A DNA stretch of 42,514 bases from a virus, in IMG/VR virus record IMGVR_UViG_3300044511_000280, positions 1 through 42,514 of that record; one strand, given 5' to 3'. This document shows positions 3,465 through 39,135 of this stretch, piece after piece. The position numbers and the translations under genes were made by a program. The notes under the pieces were generated by a model that saw nothing but the letters and a program-made list of their open reading frames with translations, did not search any database and had not been told where the DNA came from. Each line of letters opens with the position of its first letter. Positions within the stretch are counted from its first letter, which is position 1.

Positions 3465-3668
3465 TTACTCTAAGAATTCCCTATCATAATCGTCCGATAG
3501 ATTCTCATAATTTCGCAGAAAAAGTAAGGCTTGCTCAACACATTCAAAGGAATAGGTCTTTCTCATCAGGGTAATACTCTTGTCTATGTCTAAGAATGCG
3601 ATGAACCCGTGCATCTCGCACAGAAACCCGAGTTCTTCTTCTGGGGATAAAGGGCTCCCTTCAGGCAT
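3465..3668 (-). CDS. Small acidic protein between terL and portal
   Basis: 67 residues from ATG 3668, which shares its A with the terL stop (TAATG) and has GGAG six bases upstream; an ATG two codons earlier (3674) has poor spacing. The sequence (MPEGSPLSPEEELGFLCEMH..., ending in an acidic tail) is helical with no motif I recognise. Tight coupling to terL and position before the portal suggest a packaging or head-assembly accessory, but that is inference from position. Confidence 0.6.
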   Translation of the reverse strand: MPEGSPLSPEEELGFLCEMHGFIAFLDIDKSITLMRKTYSFECVEQALLFLRNYENLSDDYDREFLE

Positions 3669-5386
3669 TACCATCTCCTGTATCCTGGTTGTTGAACGGT
3701 ATCCGAATCCAAGACCGAGGTCTTCACTACTTTATGGGTGGCGACAGCATAGCGAAGCGCATCGCAGTTCTTCGTTACGATCCCATTGGCGATCATGGTC
3801 CCATGCTTTTGCGTCCCGATGCAATACACGGGCTTCTTTCCCTTCAACTTCCCAATCCTTCGGACAGAGATGAATTCCGTACCTTGGATCTCCGTCTGCT
3901 TGGGTCCCGAGGGAGCATAGATGCAAGTGAGCACCTTGTCAGTGACGAGTATCCCATTCATAGGTACCCACCCCCGCTCGGTGAGGATGAAGTGGTCTGG
4001 GGTGGCGCGCAGGATTCTTCCATCCATGAGAGATAATTCCAGAAGCTCGGAAGAAGGACGCGTGAGTTCGACGTTCAGCACCAGATCCTCCTCGATCTGC
4101 TCGGTTCTCGGGTTGAAGTTCTGAATCCGCATCTCATGGTAGTAGGTGGTCAGTTCTCGGATGGGTACATCCTTGGTGAGCAATCGGATTTTTGTCTCAG
4201 ATGTGACGCAGGCATGGTCGTTTCTCTTCACCGGTTCTTCGTTGCCGCGATCTGACTTTTTCGTATCCCACACATACCCTTCGATTTCCCTGCAAAGATT
4301 GATACAATCTTGGAGTATGGTAAGATTCCCGGACATGAGTTCAGTACTTACTTTTTGGATTCCGTACTCAACTTCATTATTGGCATCGATCACTTGCATT
4401 TTCTTCCTCCTTAGTTCTTCTTTGAAGGCAGCAGCGCTAGGATCGATGTATATCCCTCGGATGTAATAGGGAGCAAGAAATTTTTGAATATCTTCGGCAA
4501 ATTCAAAATTGGTTTTTTGTTTGCCCTCGATCTTTGGGTCGTAGTAATATTCTTTTTCCACCCAAATCTTATGACCCGACTGCGTATATCTTCCTGTGGA
4601 CACCCCCAGGAGAAGGCAGCAGAACGGATTGACCGCTCCATAATCAATGGAAGCTATCCAGTACTCAGCGGCAGCAGGCGGCTTCTTGACCACGTGGATA
4701 TCTCGGTCGAAGAAGTCGTACACCGCCCCGTCCGCGAGTACCCAGAGTCCAAGGTAATTCCGTTTATAGAAGAGTCCGGATAACGACTTCCGAAGGTCTT
4801 CCTTATAGGATTGATCGACATACGGGTTATCGTCCAAGGTAAAGTGCAAAGCATAATAATTGGGGTCCCCCTCCTCAGCCCAATCCACCCACTTCTTGAG
4901 CTTGTGGCCTGGGTGCTTTGGGTTCATAGAGGCAAAGAGTTGGGAATGCTGTCGGCTTAAACGGGTTTTCAACATATCGATGACGTTATCTGGGTAAAGA
5001 GTCATCTCGTCGCAGTAGCAAAGATCGATGGTAAGCCCCTGAATGAGGCCAAGAGCTCCTTCGTCTCCTGCTCCTATACAGAATACACTCTTCTGTCCAA
5101 ACGTTAGGCAGTGGTTCCCAGCGGACCAGGAGCAAAAGGGACGGAACAGAGAGAGTTCTGTGGAGTTGAAGAGCAACAGTATAATGTTTTTATAGATGGT
5201 TCCGAGGGAATACCCGACCAAGCAGATGGAATCGCCTGGACATTCGTAAATCGCTCGGAGAAATCTGAAAAGAGTGCATACTGTCTTCCCAGATCGGATT
5301 GAACCGTGTGCCAAATTGAACTTTGCATTGGCATTCATGATAAATTCTAGTTGCTTTGGAGAGAAAGGGGGGATAAATTGATCCAT
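3668..5386 (-). CDS. terL: Terminase large subunit with in-frame intein
   Basis: Packaging motor ATPase and nuclease. The 572-aa precursor has Walker A GSIRSGKT (28-35), Walker B LCYCDE (122-127), coupling motif SMNP (153-156) and the RNase H-like nuclease: Asp248 in SIDYG, Asp315 in YIDPSA, and the last motif NDHA/CDALRY. That last motif is split by 148 residues (393-540) with intein features; after removal the protein is ~424 aa, normal for TerL. The start at 5386 is the only in-frame option (stop a few codons upstream) and the N-terminus FSPKQLEFI...NLAHGSIRSGKT is typical, although no good Shine-Dalgarno is visible. It diverges from the + gene at 5402 with only 15 bp between them. The TerS candidate is far away at 39132. 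Confidence 0.93.
   Translation of the reverse strand: MDQFIPPFSPKQLEFIMNANAKFNLAHGSIRSGKTVCTLFRFLRAIYECPGDSICLVGYSLGTIYKNIILLLFNSTELSLFRPFCSWSAGNHCLTFGQKSVFCIGAGDEGALGLIQGLTIDLCYCDEMTLYPDNVIDMLKTRLSRQHSQLFASMNPKHPGHKLKKWVDWAEEGDPNYYALHFTLDDNPYVDQSYKEDLRKSLSGLFYKRNYLGLWVLADGAVYDFFDRDIHVVKKPPAAAEYWIASIDYGAVNPFCCLLLGVSTGRYTQSGHKIWVEKEYYYDPKIEGKQKTNFEFAEDIQKFLAPYYIRGIYIDPSAAAFKEELRRKKMQVIDANNEVEYGIQKVSTELMSGNLTILQDCINLCREIEGYVWDTKKSDRGNEEPVKRNDHACVTSETKIRLLTKDVPIRELTTYYHEMRIQNFNPRTEQIEEDLVLNVELTRPSSELLELSLMDGRILRATPDHFILTERGWVPMNGILVTDKVLTCIYAPSGPKQTEIQGTEFISVRRIGKLKGKKPVYCIGTQKHGTMIANGIVTKNCDALRYAVATHKVVKTSVLDSDTVQQPGYRRW
3767..4210 (-). mobile_element. Mini-intein inside TerL nuclease motif
   Basis: Precursor residues 393-540 (148 aa). 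It begins with Cys (CVTSETKIRLL), has a block-B motif ATPDHF with the expected T..H, a block-F-like stretch (KHGTMIANGIV) and ends in Asn followed by Cys of the C-extein (TKN|CDALRY). There is no room for a homing endonuclease, so it is a mini-intein. The usual penultimate His is Lys here. The insertion point lies between conserved active-site residues, so an unspliced protein should lack nuclease activity. Confidence 0.88.
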
Positions 5387-5762: not shown

Positions 5763-5766
5763 TCTA

Positions 5767-5793
5767 TGTTATGGTAAGCTATGGCGCATAACA
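5767..5793 (+). promoter_or_regulatory. Inverted repeat abutting integrase ribosome site
   Basis: TGTTATG (5767-5773) and CATAACA (5787-5793) are perfect reverse complements with a 13-nt gap, ending directly at the AAGGAG of the integrase. It may be an operator for autoregulation, a recombinase arm site or a translation-control hairpin; the sequence does not decide. Confidence 0.35.
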
Positions 5794-5803
5794 AGGAGAG
5801 CCT

Positions 5804-6748
5804 ATGCTTAACCAAATGATCGTCGCCACCACCTCCCAGACCAATGCTGTATGGGAGCAATTAGCCAACTGTACTGTTTCGGATTCCGTTTCTTCCTTCT
5901 TAAGCACACTTAGCGCGCCTACCCAACGCTCTTACAAAGCTGCATTCAACAGTATTTTTGAGATCTGGGAACAGCGCGGAATATTCTCCAGGAATTCTTC
6001 CCTCCAAGCATTAGCTCTCAGCAACCTTGAGAACCTCCTAGACTGCATAGAAACCTACCTGAATGGTTCTCTGTCCACTAGGCAGTCCAGATGCTCAGCC
6101 TTTATCGCATTCACCAAGTATATGGATCGGGCCACGGGGGGCATTATCCGCCCTGCAAAGCCTAGGAAGGGGGCGAATGGAACCTTCAAGAGAATCCGGG
6201 ATAAGGGAAGCACCAAAGCGTTCAGCCACGAAGATTGGGGAAAGTTCTCCAAGGCCCTCAAGGAGATTTCCCATAGAGATTATCTAATCGCTAAAGCAAT
6301 CTTCCAAGGGGCTAAAAGATGTTCGGAAGTTTTGCTCTGCGAGATCCCATCCATTGATTGGGAAAATAGTAGGATTGAATATAAACAATTGAAATCCAAT
6401 GTCTTTGAGAAAAAGACAGTGATTACCTATAATCATGAGTTTATGAAAGAACTGAAGGATTATATAGGGGAGAGAAAGGAGGGAGTCATCTTTGTGACGA
6501 GAACTGGGCATCCAGTGACCCAACCGCATCTCCATCGTTCATTCAGTGCGGCCTCGGTGAGGGCGGGACTTGCGGTCCGGGTTCATCCGCACATGCTGCG
6601 CGCCTCCGCCATCACTCTATTCATGAAAATGGGATATCATTCGGATCAGATCATCAAGGTGAGCGGGCACAGCAACACCAGTCTGGTTCTGTATTACGAC
6701 CGCTCCAGCATCGAAGACAACCTCACTCAGCAAGCGAGTCTCTTATGA
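5804..6748 (+). CDS. int: Tyrosine recombinase, chlamydial plasmid pGP7/pGP8-like
   Basis: A 314-residue site-specific recombinase. Catalytic residues are visible in order: Arg172 (QGAKRCSEV), a candidate beta-hairpin Lys197 (QLKSN), His263-x-x-Arg266 (HPHMLRAS), His289 (SGHSN) and a nucleophile Tyr297/298 (LYYDRSS). The N-terminal half is a SAM-like core-binding domain. The phrases FIAFTKYMDR, RIRDKGSTK, HRDYLIAKAIFQGAKR, DYIGERK, VFVTR-like VIFVTRTG and YDRSSIEDN resemble what I remember of the chlamydial plasmid proteins pGP7-D and pGP8-D. The start has AAGGAG five bases upstream. The stop overlaps the next ATG (6745). It implies a temperate lifestyle or a recombination/resolution role, and a chlamydial host. 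Confidence 0.9.
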   Translation: MLNQMIVATTSQTNAVWEQLANCTVSDSVSSFLSTLSAPTQRSYKAAFNSIFEIWEQRGIFSRNSSLQALALSNLENLLDCIETYLNGSLSTRQSRCSAFIAFTKYMDRATGGIIRPAKPRKGANGTFKRIRDKGSTKAFSHEDWGKFSKALKEISHRDYLIAKAIFQGAKRCSEVLLCEIPSIDWENSRIEYKQLKSNVFEKKTVITYNHEFMKELKDYIGERKEGVIFVTRTGHPVTQPHLHRSFSAASVRAGLAVRVHPHMLRASAITLFMKMGYHSDQIIKVSGHSNTSLVLYYDRSSIEDNLTQQASLL

Positions 6749-6930: not shown

Positions 6931-7100
6931 AGATCTCTAAGAAGAGGTTTGAAAAGAAGGGCCCTCCTTCTTGCGGGCATTGGGAAGGTAAGTTCTGGTG
7001 CGATTGCAGAACTCGTGGGTTTAGGAAATGGTTGGGCTTGAAACTTTTTGGGAAGGATGGTAAAATTACTGATTTCGCAATTGGGAAGGAGAATTTGTGA
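6927..7100 (+). CDS. 57-aa basic Cys/His protein
   Basis: GTG start at 6927 inside the previous stop (GTGA), stop at 7098-7100 overlapping the GTG of the RAMP-like gene. Residues: VKISKKRFEKKGPPSCGHWE, then KFWCDC, which gives a possible C-x-H...C-x-C metal site, then a basic helical C-terminus (FRKWLGLKLFGK). No family recognised. Its four-gene coupling with integrase, the 61-aa protein and the RAMP-like protein argues that it is expressed with them. Confidence 0.6.
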   Translation: MKISKKRFEKKGPPSCGHWEGKFWCDCRTRGFRKWLGLKLFGKDGKITDFAIGKENL

Positions 7101-7675
7101 AGAAGCAAGCAAAAGTTTCAGTAGAAGGGATTAAACCTCTCTTAATCCATGCGTTCAAGGAAGAGGCGCTGGATAAGAAGAAGTCTAAAAGCGGGTCGGC
7201 GGGAAACAGCCCCGATGAGTGGCAAAACACTATCATCATGGATGGGGATCGCAAAATCTACCTTCCCTCCTCCTATTTCTTTGCCTCCATCAAAGAGGCG
7301 GGGAAGTATACCAAGATAGGGCGAGGCAATATCGTTAAGCATGTGGGAGCAACCCTTGAAGTGAGTCCAGACAATATTTACCTAGATGATCGCATAGTCC
7401 CTCTGCCTAACGAAATATCGAGGGATTCCACACAGCGCGTCTATTTGGATGTGCGTTCCGTGGTCAACCCAATGACGAAGGGGAGAAACCTGCGTTACCG
7501 CGTGGCTTGTCCCCCAGGTTGGAAGGCCTTCTTCTTCATATCGTGGGAGGATTCGATATTGTCTGCCTCCCAGATGGAACAGTTAGTGAAGGATGCTGGA
7601 CTCATGGCTGGGACAGGGTGTGGGAGGGCCATTGGGTTCGGACGCTTTCAGGTGCTTTCGTTTCAGATTTGTTAG
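7097..7675 (+). CDS. RAMP / Cas7-like fold protein (candidate)
   Basis: 192 residues from GTG 7097, overlapping the previous stop. N-terminus VSVEGIKPLLIHAF, central IYLPSSYFFASIKEAGKY, then VDVRSVV-like YLDVRSVVNPMTKGRNLRYR, and a C-terminal glycine-rich loop GTGCGRAIGFGRF (172-184). This order ('v.i.G..PLL.H.F', 'Y.P..h....l..A', 'R.v......R..RYRp', 'G.G..R..GFGRF') is known to me from phage proteins, and the Gly-rich loop plus ferredoxin-like layout recalls the RNA-binding RAMP/Cas7 group. That fold assignment is inference. The repeat/NNNGG array begins 18 bp after its stop, which makes RNA binding attractive. No nuclease motif is apparent. Confidence 0.6.
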   Translation: MKKQAKVSVEGIKPLLIHAFKEEALDKKKSKSGSAGNSPDEWQNTIIMDGDRKIYLPSSYFFASIKEAGKYTKIGRGNIVKHVGATLEVSPDNIYLDDRIVPLPNEISRDSTQRVYLDVRSVVNPMTKGRNLRYRVACPPGWKAFFFISWEDSILSASQMEQLVKDAGLMAGTGCGRAIGFGRFQVLSFQIC

Positions 7676-7743
7676 AGATCAGGATGGGCGACGTTTGGAA
7701 GGGATAGGAAAGGCTTGGAGCGGAAAGGTTCGGAGAGGAATGG

Positions 7744-7767
7744 CAATCAATGGTTTTAAGGAAGATA
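7744..7767 (+). repeat. Array repeat copy 1
   Basis: CAATCAATGGTTTTAAGGAA followed by GATA. One change (AAGG for AAGA) from the consensus. Confidence 0.85.
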
Positions 7768-7809
7768 GGAAAGGGTTGGAGAGGAAGGGTTAGGCCAGGA
7801 ATGGAATGG

Positions 7810-7833
7810 AATTCAATGGTTTTAAGAAAGATA
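7810..7833 (+). repeat. Array repeat copy 2
   Basis: AATTCAATGGTTTTAAGAAA followed by GATA. The first three bases differ from the consensus. Confidence 0.85.
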
Positions 7834-7912
7834 CGGCATGGCTGAAGTCAGGACAGGCTAGGACCGGAATGGAATGGTGAGGAAAGGACAGGCTCGGATC
7901 GGAGAGGAAAAG

Positions 7913-7936
7913 CAATCAATGGTTTTAAGAAAGATA
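7913..7936 (+). repeat. Array repeat copy 3
   Basis: CAATCAATGGTTTTAAGAAA followed by GATA, the consensus form; preceded by AAAAG, as is copy 4. Confidence 0.85.
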
Positions 7937-7985
7937 GAGTATCGTTAAGGCGAGGATGGGAAGGGACAGGATAGGATAGGAAAAG

Positions 7986-8009
7986 CAATCAATGGTTTTA
8001 AGAAAAAAG
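7986..8009 (+). repeat. Array repeat copy 4, degenerate 3' end
   Basis: CAATCAATGGTTTTAAGAAA, then AAAGAGATAGG instead of GATA. Preceded by AAAAG. Its tail merges into the ribosome-site region (GATAGGA) of the gene at 8019. Confidence 0.8.
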
Positions 8010-13085: not shown

Positions 13086-14192
13086 ATGGCTGAATATTCT
13101 AGAATGGCAAAAGGAAGTTTTACTTCTACGGGTTCTGCGAAGGTTATTTATTTGCCCTTCCAGCCCGACCACGTTCGATTTGTCAACTATACATCGTCCA
13201 CAACTCCAGCGACCAACGGGATTCCCCATGCTTATTGGGATTCCGGAATGGGCCAAGGGTTTGCAGCGGTTGACATTTTCAACGCCACTCCTGTCTTGAC
13301 GACTTCTATCGTTGCCTCTAACGGTATTAGTACGTTTAGCGCAGGGCTTATGTTCCAGTTCGGTGCCCAGATTCAGATTGCCAGCATCACAAAGGCAAGC
13401 CCTGCCGTTGTGACCACTGCTTCTGCTCACGGGTATTCCACGGGGGACATCGTATTGCTTGAGGGCCTGTATCAAACCTCTACGACAGGGATGCCGCAAA
13501 TCTCTGGTATTCCATTCGTCGTAACGGTTACAGGTGCCACAACTTTTACGATCCCTTGGAACACCAACCAATCGAATTACACTGCTCTGTCTGGATCGCC
13601 AGCGGGTGCATATGTGATGAAGGTTCTCTTCCCCTTCCTCTATGCTCCTGGGTGGTCTACCATCAGTGCAATTACCCTTGGAACCACAACCACCGTGACT
13701 ACTACGTTGCCGCATAACCTTGTGGTTGGGCAAGAGGTGGCATTCAGAATCCCGTCGGTTTGGGGAACAACACAGTTGAACACCCTTCCGAACAGTTCGA
13801 TTCCTGGATCGCCTATATACTATTTGGTCACATCGGTTGCGAGCAGCACTCAGTTCGTGTGCAATGCGGTTTCTTCGAGCTTCACGGCCTTTGCCAGCAA
13901 CCCAACGGTTGCCCAGACGCCGGGTCTCTCGTTCCCGCAAGTGATTCCTATTGGGGATATCAATAGTGGAGGAGTCGCTTACTCAGGCGGCGCTCTCTAT
14001 CCATCTCCAGTCGTGAGCGGGGCAAGCACAATCAATGGCCCGGCGATCTCTGGATCATTCGTAAATAACACTCGTCAAGGTTTCTTGATTGGAGCAGGAG
14101 CAGCCACAGGGTTTGCCTCCTCTTCCCTCGTTGGAGCCAACAACGATGTGATTTACTGGGAGGCCATCCTCTCAGATTTTGCTAGTCCGTAA
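13086..14192 (+). CDS. Virion protein with E1-FCCH-like domains
   Basis: 368 residues, Thr/Ser/Ala/Gly-rich, beta-structured. The blocks ITKASPAVVTTASAHGYSTG (then D-I-V-L-L-E-G) and ITLGTTTTVTTTLPHNLVVG are the 'a...HG...GD.V...g..G...m' pattern used in phage structural proteins and named after the ubiquitin E1 FCCH domain. Ends with a smooth beta-sandwich-like region. It is the first gene after the capsid, so a head decoration, head-vertex or neck protein is plausible. The segment from about 195 to 300 resurfaces as a separate gene at 14576. The 3' end overlaps the convergent gene at 14182 by 11 bp. Confidence 0.7.
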   Translation: MAEYSRMAKGSFTSTGSAKVIYLPFQPDHVRFVNYTSSTTPATNGIPHAYWDSGMGQGFAAVDIFNATPVLTTSIVASNGISTFSAGLMFQFGAQIQIASITKASPAVVTTASAHGYSTGDIVLLEGLYQTSTTGMPQISGIPFVVTVTGATTFTIPWNTNQSNYTALSGSPAGAYVMKVLFPFLYAPGWSTISAITLGTTTTVTTTLPHNLVVGQEVAFRIPSVWGTTQLNTLPNSSIPGSPIYYLVTSVASSTQFVCNAVSSSFTAFASNPTVAQTPGLSFPQVIPIGDINSGGVAYSGGALYPSPVVSGASTINGPAISGSFVNNTRQGFLIGAGAATGFASSSLVGANNDVIYWEAILSDFASP

Positions 14193-34082: not shown

Positions 34083-34198
34083 GGTGCTCCCTCTTTAAAA
34101 TCAGCTGCCAAGCCCGGTTTTTTAGAGGAGACACGATTCTACCTCGGATAGGTAAATACGGTCAACTGGAGGGAGCACCAGAAAGAAAAAGGTGCTCC
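34083..34198 (+). promoter_or_regulatory. Two mutually exclusive helices over the initiator ribosome site
   Basis: GGTGCTCCCTC (34083-34093) is the perfect complement of GAGGGAGCACC (34169-34179). The same GGAGCACC (34172-34179) can also pair with GGTGCTCC (34191-34198) across an 11-nt purine loop; that second helix covers the AAGGTG ribosome site of the gene at 34201. An 11-bp long-range helix would free the site, the 8-bp local helix would hide it. Attenuator or riboswitch-like control of the replication initiator. Confidence 0.5.
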
Positions 34199-34200
34199 AG

Positions 34201-35079
34201 ATGACCAACAAGATCTCCCTCCTCTCTCTCCTCAACGGAAACTCCTTCGGCACCTATCATCGTCCTCTGGCTGCAACCATAGGGCTGGTTGAGGCGGTCC
34301 TTCTCGGAGAACTCATCTACCGATACCAATCCTTTCTGGAAAGCGGAAGCATCCAAGAAGGGGATTGGTTCTATCTGACAGCGGAAGACATTCAGCAGAG
34401 AACCGGGATTAAGCGGAGAAGCCTAGACAGCGCCGTGGAGGAGCTTAAGGAACTTGGGCTTCTAGAGACCTGCGTTAGGGGGTGTCCTGCAACACGCCAT
34501 TATCGCCTAAACATTCCTTCGATTTTGGATCTGATTGAGGGGGGGTGTACAAACTGGTTTGGCGGAAACGCCAAACTGGATTGGACGAAACGCCAAACTG
34601 GGGAACCGGACCCCCTCTCTCATACTCTCTCCCCCCTTAAGGAAAATAAGAAAGAAACATTAGAACGAAGTAGTGCTCAAACCAGTCCGGCGACACCTTC
34701 AACGGACCCTCCGCCTACGGCTTCGGGCCCGCCTCAGGTGCGGCGGACACCAACTCAATCCGAACCGATCTCATTTTGCTTTGAGAAGAAAGAGTTTCTA
34801 GGTATTCAGCCCTCCGACAAGGAGGGATGGTTAGAGGCTTATCCAGCGGTCAAGGTGGACGCTGAGCTGAAAAGAATGAGAGAATGGGTGCTAAGCAATC
34901 CTAAGAAGGCGAAGAGTAAAAAGCAGTGGAGGAAGTTCATAACCCTTTGGTTAGAAAAGTCAAACGAAAAAGAAGTGAACCGAGCGGCCTACCAATCCCT
35001 AGGGACTAAGGGGATAAACCGATCTCAGAAAAACCCGGATGGAACAGATACCCCTAACCCTTGGGAAGGAATATGGTAA
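34201..35079 (+). CDS. Replication initiator-like protein (winged helix)
   Basis: 292 residues from ATG 34201 (AAGGTG upstream; GTG 34192 is possible). N-terminal ~110: GLVEAVLLGELIYRYQSFLE, FYLTAEDIQQRTGIKRRSLD and SAVEELKELGLLETCVRGCP TRHYRLN form a winged-helix replication/primosomal domain of the lambda O/DnaD kind. A disordered Pro/Thr linker follows, and the C-terminal ~90 residues (GWLEAYPAVKVDAELKRMRE WVLSNPKKAKSKKQWRKFIT LWL) match the DnaD/primase-assisting helix. It overlaps the helicase-loader gene, as lambda O-P or phage DnaD-DnaC pairs do. Confidence 0.75.
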   Translation: MTNKISLLSLLNGNSFGTYHRPLAATIGLVEAVLLGELIYRYQSFLESGSIQEGDWFYLTAEDIQQRTGIKRRSLDSAVEELKELGLLETCVRGCPATRHYRLNIPSILDLIEGGCTNWFGGNAKLDWTKRQTGEPDPLSHTLSPLKENKKETLERSSAQTSPATPSTDPPPTASGPPQVRRTPTQSEPISFCFEKKEFLGIQPSDKEGWLEAYPAVKVDAELKRMREWVLSNPKKAKSKKQWRKFITLWLEKSNEKEVNRAAYQSLGTKGINRSQKNPDGTDTPNPWEGIW

Positions 35080-39035: not shown

Positions 39036-39135
39036 GAAAAAAGGTCATCAGAAAGAGATGAAGAAATTTGCCAAAGAATTTGAAAAGAAAGGTCAGCAAG
39101 AAGAAAAGAAAGAACATAAAGAAAAAAAGAAATGA
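39025..39135 (+). CDS. 36-aa lysine-rich protein
   Basis: MAHKKKGHQKEMKKFAKEFE KKGQQEEKKEHKEKKK. Low-complexity, charged. ATG overlaps the previous end and its stop overlaps the ATG of the terminase-like gene, so it is probably translated. Possible DNA-binding; composition only. Confidence 0.45.
   Translation: MAHKKKGHQKEMKKFAKEFEKKGQQEEKKEHKEKKK

Follow-up and report, generated by a model that had tools for sequence, protein, structure and literature searches.

What kind of system is encoded where a RAMP-like gene adjoins a block of short, interrupted repeats in a phage genome? We addressed this question for a 42,514-nucleotide IMG/VR virus record (hereafter, the window), which carries terminase, portal, capsid and integrase genes. 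A preliminary description had reported a CRISPR-like array whose spacers were runs of NNNGG, a kind not known from any described system. Its four copies of a ~24-bp repeat (CAATCAATGGTTTTAAGAAA; starts at 7744, 7810, 7913 and 7986, spaced by 66, 103 and 73, with the copy at 7986 altered at its 3′ end) were confirmed in the sequence, as were the NNNGG blocks between them. On the plus strand, perfect NNNGG runs lie at 7694–7743 (10 units), 7765–7809 (9), 7848–7907 (12) and 7946–7980 (7), giving 38 units; no further plus-strand run of at least 4 units was found in the 42.5-kb window, and the minus strand holds one run, of 4 units. The four runs are far beyond chance: in 2,000 shuffles of the same region that kept dinucleotide composition, the longest run reached 7 units and the highest total 13 (observed, 12 and 38). 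No plus-strand open reading frame (ORF) of at least 80 aa spans the array, and no Rfam family matched there. The fixed GG of the original description therefore stood, but its freely variable triplet did not, as position 1 is constrained (A 26, T 6, C 5 and G 1 of the 38 units) and only positions 2 and 3 are highly variable, the usual word being A-N-N-G-G. Of the 16 possible NN dinucleotides, 11–15 occur in four of the five loci counted and 12 in the fifth.

The supposed repeat is itself in 5-nt register, comprising CAATC or AATTC (a unit minus its GG), the constant unit AATGG and then a non-pentameric tail, TTTTAAG[G/A]AAGATA, present as four near-identical copies of TTTTAAG[G/A]AAG(ATA). What had been taken for CRISPR-like spacers and repeats is better read as guides made of pentamers, each ending in its last two pentamers and a constant RNA tail, so that a guide, its constant 3′ end and the next guide follow one another (Table 1). 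Guides of this kind have in fact been described: the main text of a 2026 preprint on VIPR (PMC13142463; bioRxiv 2026.04.26.720920) presents a RAMP protein, Vipr, with vrRNAs of 9–16 YNNGG repeats and a tail, whose NN letters bind double-stranded DNA with one skipped base, repressing competing phages. The RNA guide array and its tie to the RAMP-like gene thus survived from the preliminary description, and the novelty of the system did not.

We interpret the window locus as a phage-borne VIPR (probability roughly 0.9), with a vipr gene and four vrRNA arrays that would silence rival phages or satellites sharing the host. Several hallmarks are present: a small, single-RRM RAMP protein with a G-loop, homologous to the Vipr of Escherichia phage SUSP1; beside its gene, fixed-GG, hypervariable-NN guides of 13 (one broken), 9 and 12 units, plus a fourth with 7 perfect units; an invariant 3′ tail; and carriage by a virus with phage genes. 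Against this reading, the third fixed base is A in 26 of 38 units and C or T in 11 of 38, versus the GGY 'or a related consensus' of the PMC13142463 main text (a departure that bears on the variant rather than on membership, given that wording); vrRNA4 has 7 perfect units versus 9–16; the tail forms no stable hairpin or fold in predicted folding; no vap gene, a typical VIPR accessory, was recognised, the vipr neighbours having no family match; and no convincing DNA target was found for the window guides under the 1-nt skip rule in viral contigs, kin phages and 234 genomes.

Table 1 Features of the vipr locus in the window
Feature	Position	Strand	Remarks
Tyrosine integrase	5804..6748	+	Pfam PF00589, E = 1 × 10−18; heads the coupled gene run into vipr
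Small Cys-rich ORF, 61 aa	6745..6930	+	Read from sequence; no PHROG match
Small Cys-rich ORF, 57 aa	6927..7100	+	Read from sequence; no significant PHROG match
Candidate sigma-70-like promoter	7038..7066	+	TTGAAA-17-TAAAAT, ahead of vipr; 1 found versus 2.2 expected from shuffles, not above chance
vipr	7097..7675	+	192-aa RAMP (Cas7-like), predicted guide-RNA-binding protein; G-loop GTGCGRAIGFGRF; GTG start
vrRNA1 guide	7679..7743	+	13 pentamers in register, one broken (CGACG, 7689–7693); 10 consecutive perfect from 7694
vrRNA1 3′ end	7744..7764	+	CAATC AATGG + tail TTTTAAGGAAG
vrRNA2 guide	7765..7809	+	9 perfect pentamers
vrRNA2 3′ end	7810..7830	+	AATTC AATGG + tail TTTTAAGAAAG
vrRNA3 guide	7848..7912	+	12 perfect pentamers + AAAAG; irregular 5′ lead 7831–7847
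vrRNA3 3′ end	7913..7933	+	CAATC AATGG + tail TTTTAAGAAAG
vrRNA4 guide	7946..7985	+	7 perfect pentamers + AAAAG; irregular 5′ lead 7934–7945
vrRNA4 3′ end	7986..8006	+	CAATC AATGG + tail TTTTAAGAAAA; last, degenerate copy

The protein evidence links the window gene to VIPR at the levels of family, profile and fold. Its product was assigned to phrog_4652 (E = 3 × 10−9), the PHROG family of SUSP1 Vipr, to which it is 20% identical in pairwise alignment (E = 4 × 10−5), and a profile of the window family matched PDB entry 36pp ('SUSP1 Vipr protein') with E values of 5.6 × 10−8 and 9.4 × 10−10, the latter being the profile's sole significant match in the PDB sequence set. An AlphaFold (AF2) model built with 45 relatives as input reached a pLDDT of 90.5 (an earlier input of 5 sequences gave 44.5 and was unusable). 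We assign the protein to the RAMPs because every one of the model's best 50 PDB fold matches belongs to a CRISPR complex of type III (Csm/Cmr) or type VII, and most are backbone subunits of the Csm3/Cas7 type (E from 2 × 10−9). It shares with these subunits the RAMP/RRM fold and G-loop, but not a significant sequence match, and they operate in systems with many partner Cas proteins. The crRNAs of type III and VII systems pair contiguously with 6-nt periodicity and have no GG-fixed pentamers. Within the window, the integrase, the two small ORFs and vipr probably form one coupled operon, because stop/start overlaps chain the four genes: the integrase stop (TGA, 6746–6748) overlaps the ATG (6745–6747) of the next ORF, and the stop of the 57-aa ORF (TGA, 7098–7100) overlaps the vipr start, suggesting translational coupling of that ORF to vipr.

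The recurrent association of such arrays with a RAMP-like gene and with different triplets, which the preliminary description had set as its test, was indeed found in relatives. Each of the first five viral relatives carried long pentamer arrays directly downstream of the gene, with different interrupting sequences, and in most of the 56 relative loci fetched (39 viral, 17 genome) a 5-nt-periodic array, again with differing tails, lay no more than 2.5 kb from vipr. Among 81 same-group loci (phages with a similar portal, window included), 5 had array and vipr, none an array alone, 74 neither, and 2 a divergent vipr whose arrays are degenerate and contain no GG run (Fisher P = 8 × 10−7 for array–vipr linkage); neither array nor vipr occurred in 83 unrelated phage loci (658 kb). 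In Paenibacillus, Bacillus and Nostoc, the arrangement is also present in chromosomes and plasmids. By motif, 18 of 67 loci have an HNH endonuclease gene beside vipr, none of them in the window's clade, and no HNH motif lies within 3 kb of the window vipr. Two same-group phages (L336, 1–4000; L346, 3205–4400) carry a second, SUSP1-like Vipr lineage near the portal gene, flanked by irregular, degenerate arrays; one genome, Oscillochloris sp. ZM17-4 (L247, G056), has four Vipr matches that are 39–49% identical to the window protein; and no hammerhead in L223/L084 reached the Rfam gathering score.

These comparisons also bear on other explanations of the array. The unequal blocks between copies of a ~24-bp repeat, adjacent to a RAMP gene, would suit a CRISPR array serving a CRISPR-Cas effector, but the 'spacers' are low-entropy NNNGG runs of 35–60 nt, the 'repeat' keeps register with them, relatives share the pentamers while their 'repeats' are unrelated, and the RAMP stands alone, with no cas1-, cas2- or cas10-like neighbour seen among the ORFs read. 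Identical repeats with unique spacers of similar length were not what we found, and the register and relatives refute this reading, which we consider extremely improbable. Tandem pentamers can also be produced by slippage, as in a low-complexity expansion, or might form a packaging or recombination signal unconnected with the gene; phase is, however, held over 7–19 units while the NN letters vary, and the strict vipr linkage and the recurrence in bacterial chromosomes and plasmids leave this explanation with next to no credence.

CsrA/RsmA-type proteins bind GGA, and the window array is rich in it (26 of 38), as might be expected of a decoy or sponge RNA for such proteins; a scaffold for Vipr without base pairing is a related idea. 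GGA is not the constant element, however, since close kin use GGC or GGT, and a further clade GTY, at the same 5-nt spacing; the NN positions, by contrast, stay diverse, as guides would, making a decoy or scaffold very unlikely. Decay of a once functional VIPR, with the array drifting from GGY to mixed letters and Vipr inactive, would account for the mixed third base, the broken units and the short vrRNA4. It is nevertheless unlikely, with the vipr frame intact and conserved, G nearly absent at position 1 and two basal relatives (L249 and L264) at 97–100% A.

As a VIPR, the window locus combines shared and distinct features relative to known and newly collected members. Like the type II SUSP1 system (KT454805; PDB 36pp), it is phage-encoded, has a ~190-aa Vipr of the same PHROG family, and has several vrRNAs per locus, with fixed-GG/variable-NN pentamers and a constant 3′ tail. 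SUSP1 differs in its TNNGG/CNNGG units, its vap1 gene and its structured tail (a structure that PMC13142463, in its main text, shows for the SUSP1 clade), whereas the window has mostly ANNGG, a short unstructured tail, no recognised vap and all four vrRNAs downstream of the gene. The VIPRs of the window's own clade (L005–L009 and L249–L252, some in the same phage group) have Viprs 45–51% identical to the window's, adjacent arrays, tails starting GG-TTT(T)A and no HNH neighbour by motif; they differ in that most use GGC/GGT, and L249, at 97% GGA, has arrays on both sides of the gene. By eye, the tails of L006–L008 and L250 resemble small GNRA-type hairpins, and that of L008 is also present in its predicted fold. 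HNH-associated relatives (for example, L223 from Paenibacillus and L232–L235) likewise have adjacent arrays, with Viprs 37–48% identical, and differ by the HNH gene.

The adenine spelling of the window (GGA, not GGC/GGT) may represent a new VIPR variant, within the latitude of the preprint's main text, and it recurs in other phages. Position 1 is A in 68% of window units, 97% in L249 and 100% in L264, whereas L005–L008 and L250–L252 have 94–100% C/T at the fixed third base. A tree of 66 Viprs places the window basally in a nine-row clade (support 100/95), with L249 branching next and, above it, six GGC/GGT readers and one GGT reader. A scan for (ANNGG)6 turned up two further A readers, the distant Viprs L151 (92%) and L155 (100%). 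GGA requires at least three changes on the tree, although the placement of L151 and L155 is uncertain because of long branches. In these unrelated phages, nearly pure ANNGG arrays lie by the Vipr genes at 5765–5971 (L151) and 13439–13789 (L155). YNNGT pentamers (GTY) linked to Vipr were seen in L224, L236–L238, L240–L241, L245, L274, L276–L277 and L281; 11 of 12 GTY readers form one Vipr clade (100/99), mostly Nostocaceae and viral contigs. Residue 44, which is K/R in most readers of pyrimidines but N/M in the A readers of the window's clade, was considered as a specificity residue and rejected on account of C/T-reader exceptions (D/S in L250–L252, D in L254).

Tentatively, and at somewhat less than even odds, the VIPR code could lack a universal fixed part, each Vipr instead setting its own dialect (with GGY, GGA and GTY readers); GGA would have arisen more than once, and dialects would perhaps prevent the VIPRs of competing phages from sharing guides in one cell. 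The locus and its close relatives, which differ from it by a single fixed letter, amount to a natural experiment in how RAMP subunits read the framework of their guides. If dialects with matched Viprs do exist, they would provide orthogonal programmable silencers, and the protein–RNA recognition rule could be tested by swaps. CRISPR RAMP systems have been proposed to descend from VIPR, whose range the window locus extends to phages with probable chlamydia-like hosts.

By analogy with the preprint (PMC13142463), the arrays would be transcribed as four vrRNAs on which Vipr subunits would polymerise, one per pentamer, each gripping the fixed GG and the next base (in the window mostly A, not C/T) and presenting the NN dinucleotide; together, the NN pairs would recognise double-stranded DNA with one base skipped per unit (NNxNNxNN), and the bound complex would silence the genes of rival phages or satellites that share a host. 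Binding and repression are likelier outcomes than cutting, because no nuclease or accessory gene was found beside the window vipr and no nuclease-type neighbour in its clade. Used as a DNA query, the repeat core gave 68 single matches in viral contigs, consistent with chance. The aim of the window guides rests on the likeness to VIPR, and several candidate targets were set aside: exact 16-base 1-nt-skip cores matched viral contigs 6 times for vrRNA1 and 9 times for vrRNA3, with flanking units no better than chance; and a 1-nt skip gave no significant excess over 0-, 2- or 3-nt skips or shuffled guides in kin and relatives. With mismatches allowed, vrRNA2 matched 16 of 18 positions in the portal gene of a kin phage (L362), a weak match (E of ~0.2–0.4) not conserved in other kin, in which the skipped base falls at the wobble position, in codon phase. 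Among 234 genomes from the phylum that probably includes the host, matches versus a reversed-pattern control (3 versus 5 for vrRNA1, in one listed pattern direction each; 4 versus 1 for vrRNA2; and 0 for vrRNA3) were not convincing.

The phage probably infects a member of the Chlamydiota. In a portal search that covered a single phylum, a homologue 61% identical to the window portal was found on a 39,969-nt contig in 1 of the 234 genomes; the chlamydial major outer membrane protein (PF01308) was present in 28 of 37 sampled members of the phylum and 0 of 14 controls, and the same phylum contains six Vipr loci. Elsewhere in the window, the terminase large subunit (3668–5386, minus strand) contains a mini-intein of ~145 aa (CVTSETKIR...GIVTKN, followed by C) inserted in the nuclease motif (KRNDHA^CDALRYAV), with a Pfam Intein_splicing match below the cut-off. 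Short tandem repeats of 22 bp and 21 bp occur at 34550–34601 and 39082–39132, respectively, the former within an ORF (34192–35079) that perhaps encodes a replication initiator with origin repeats.
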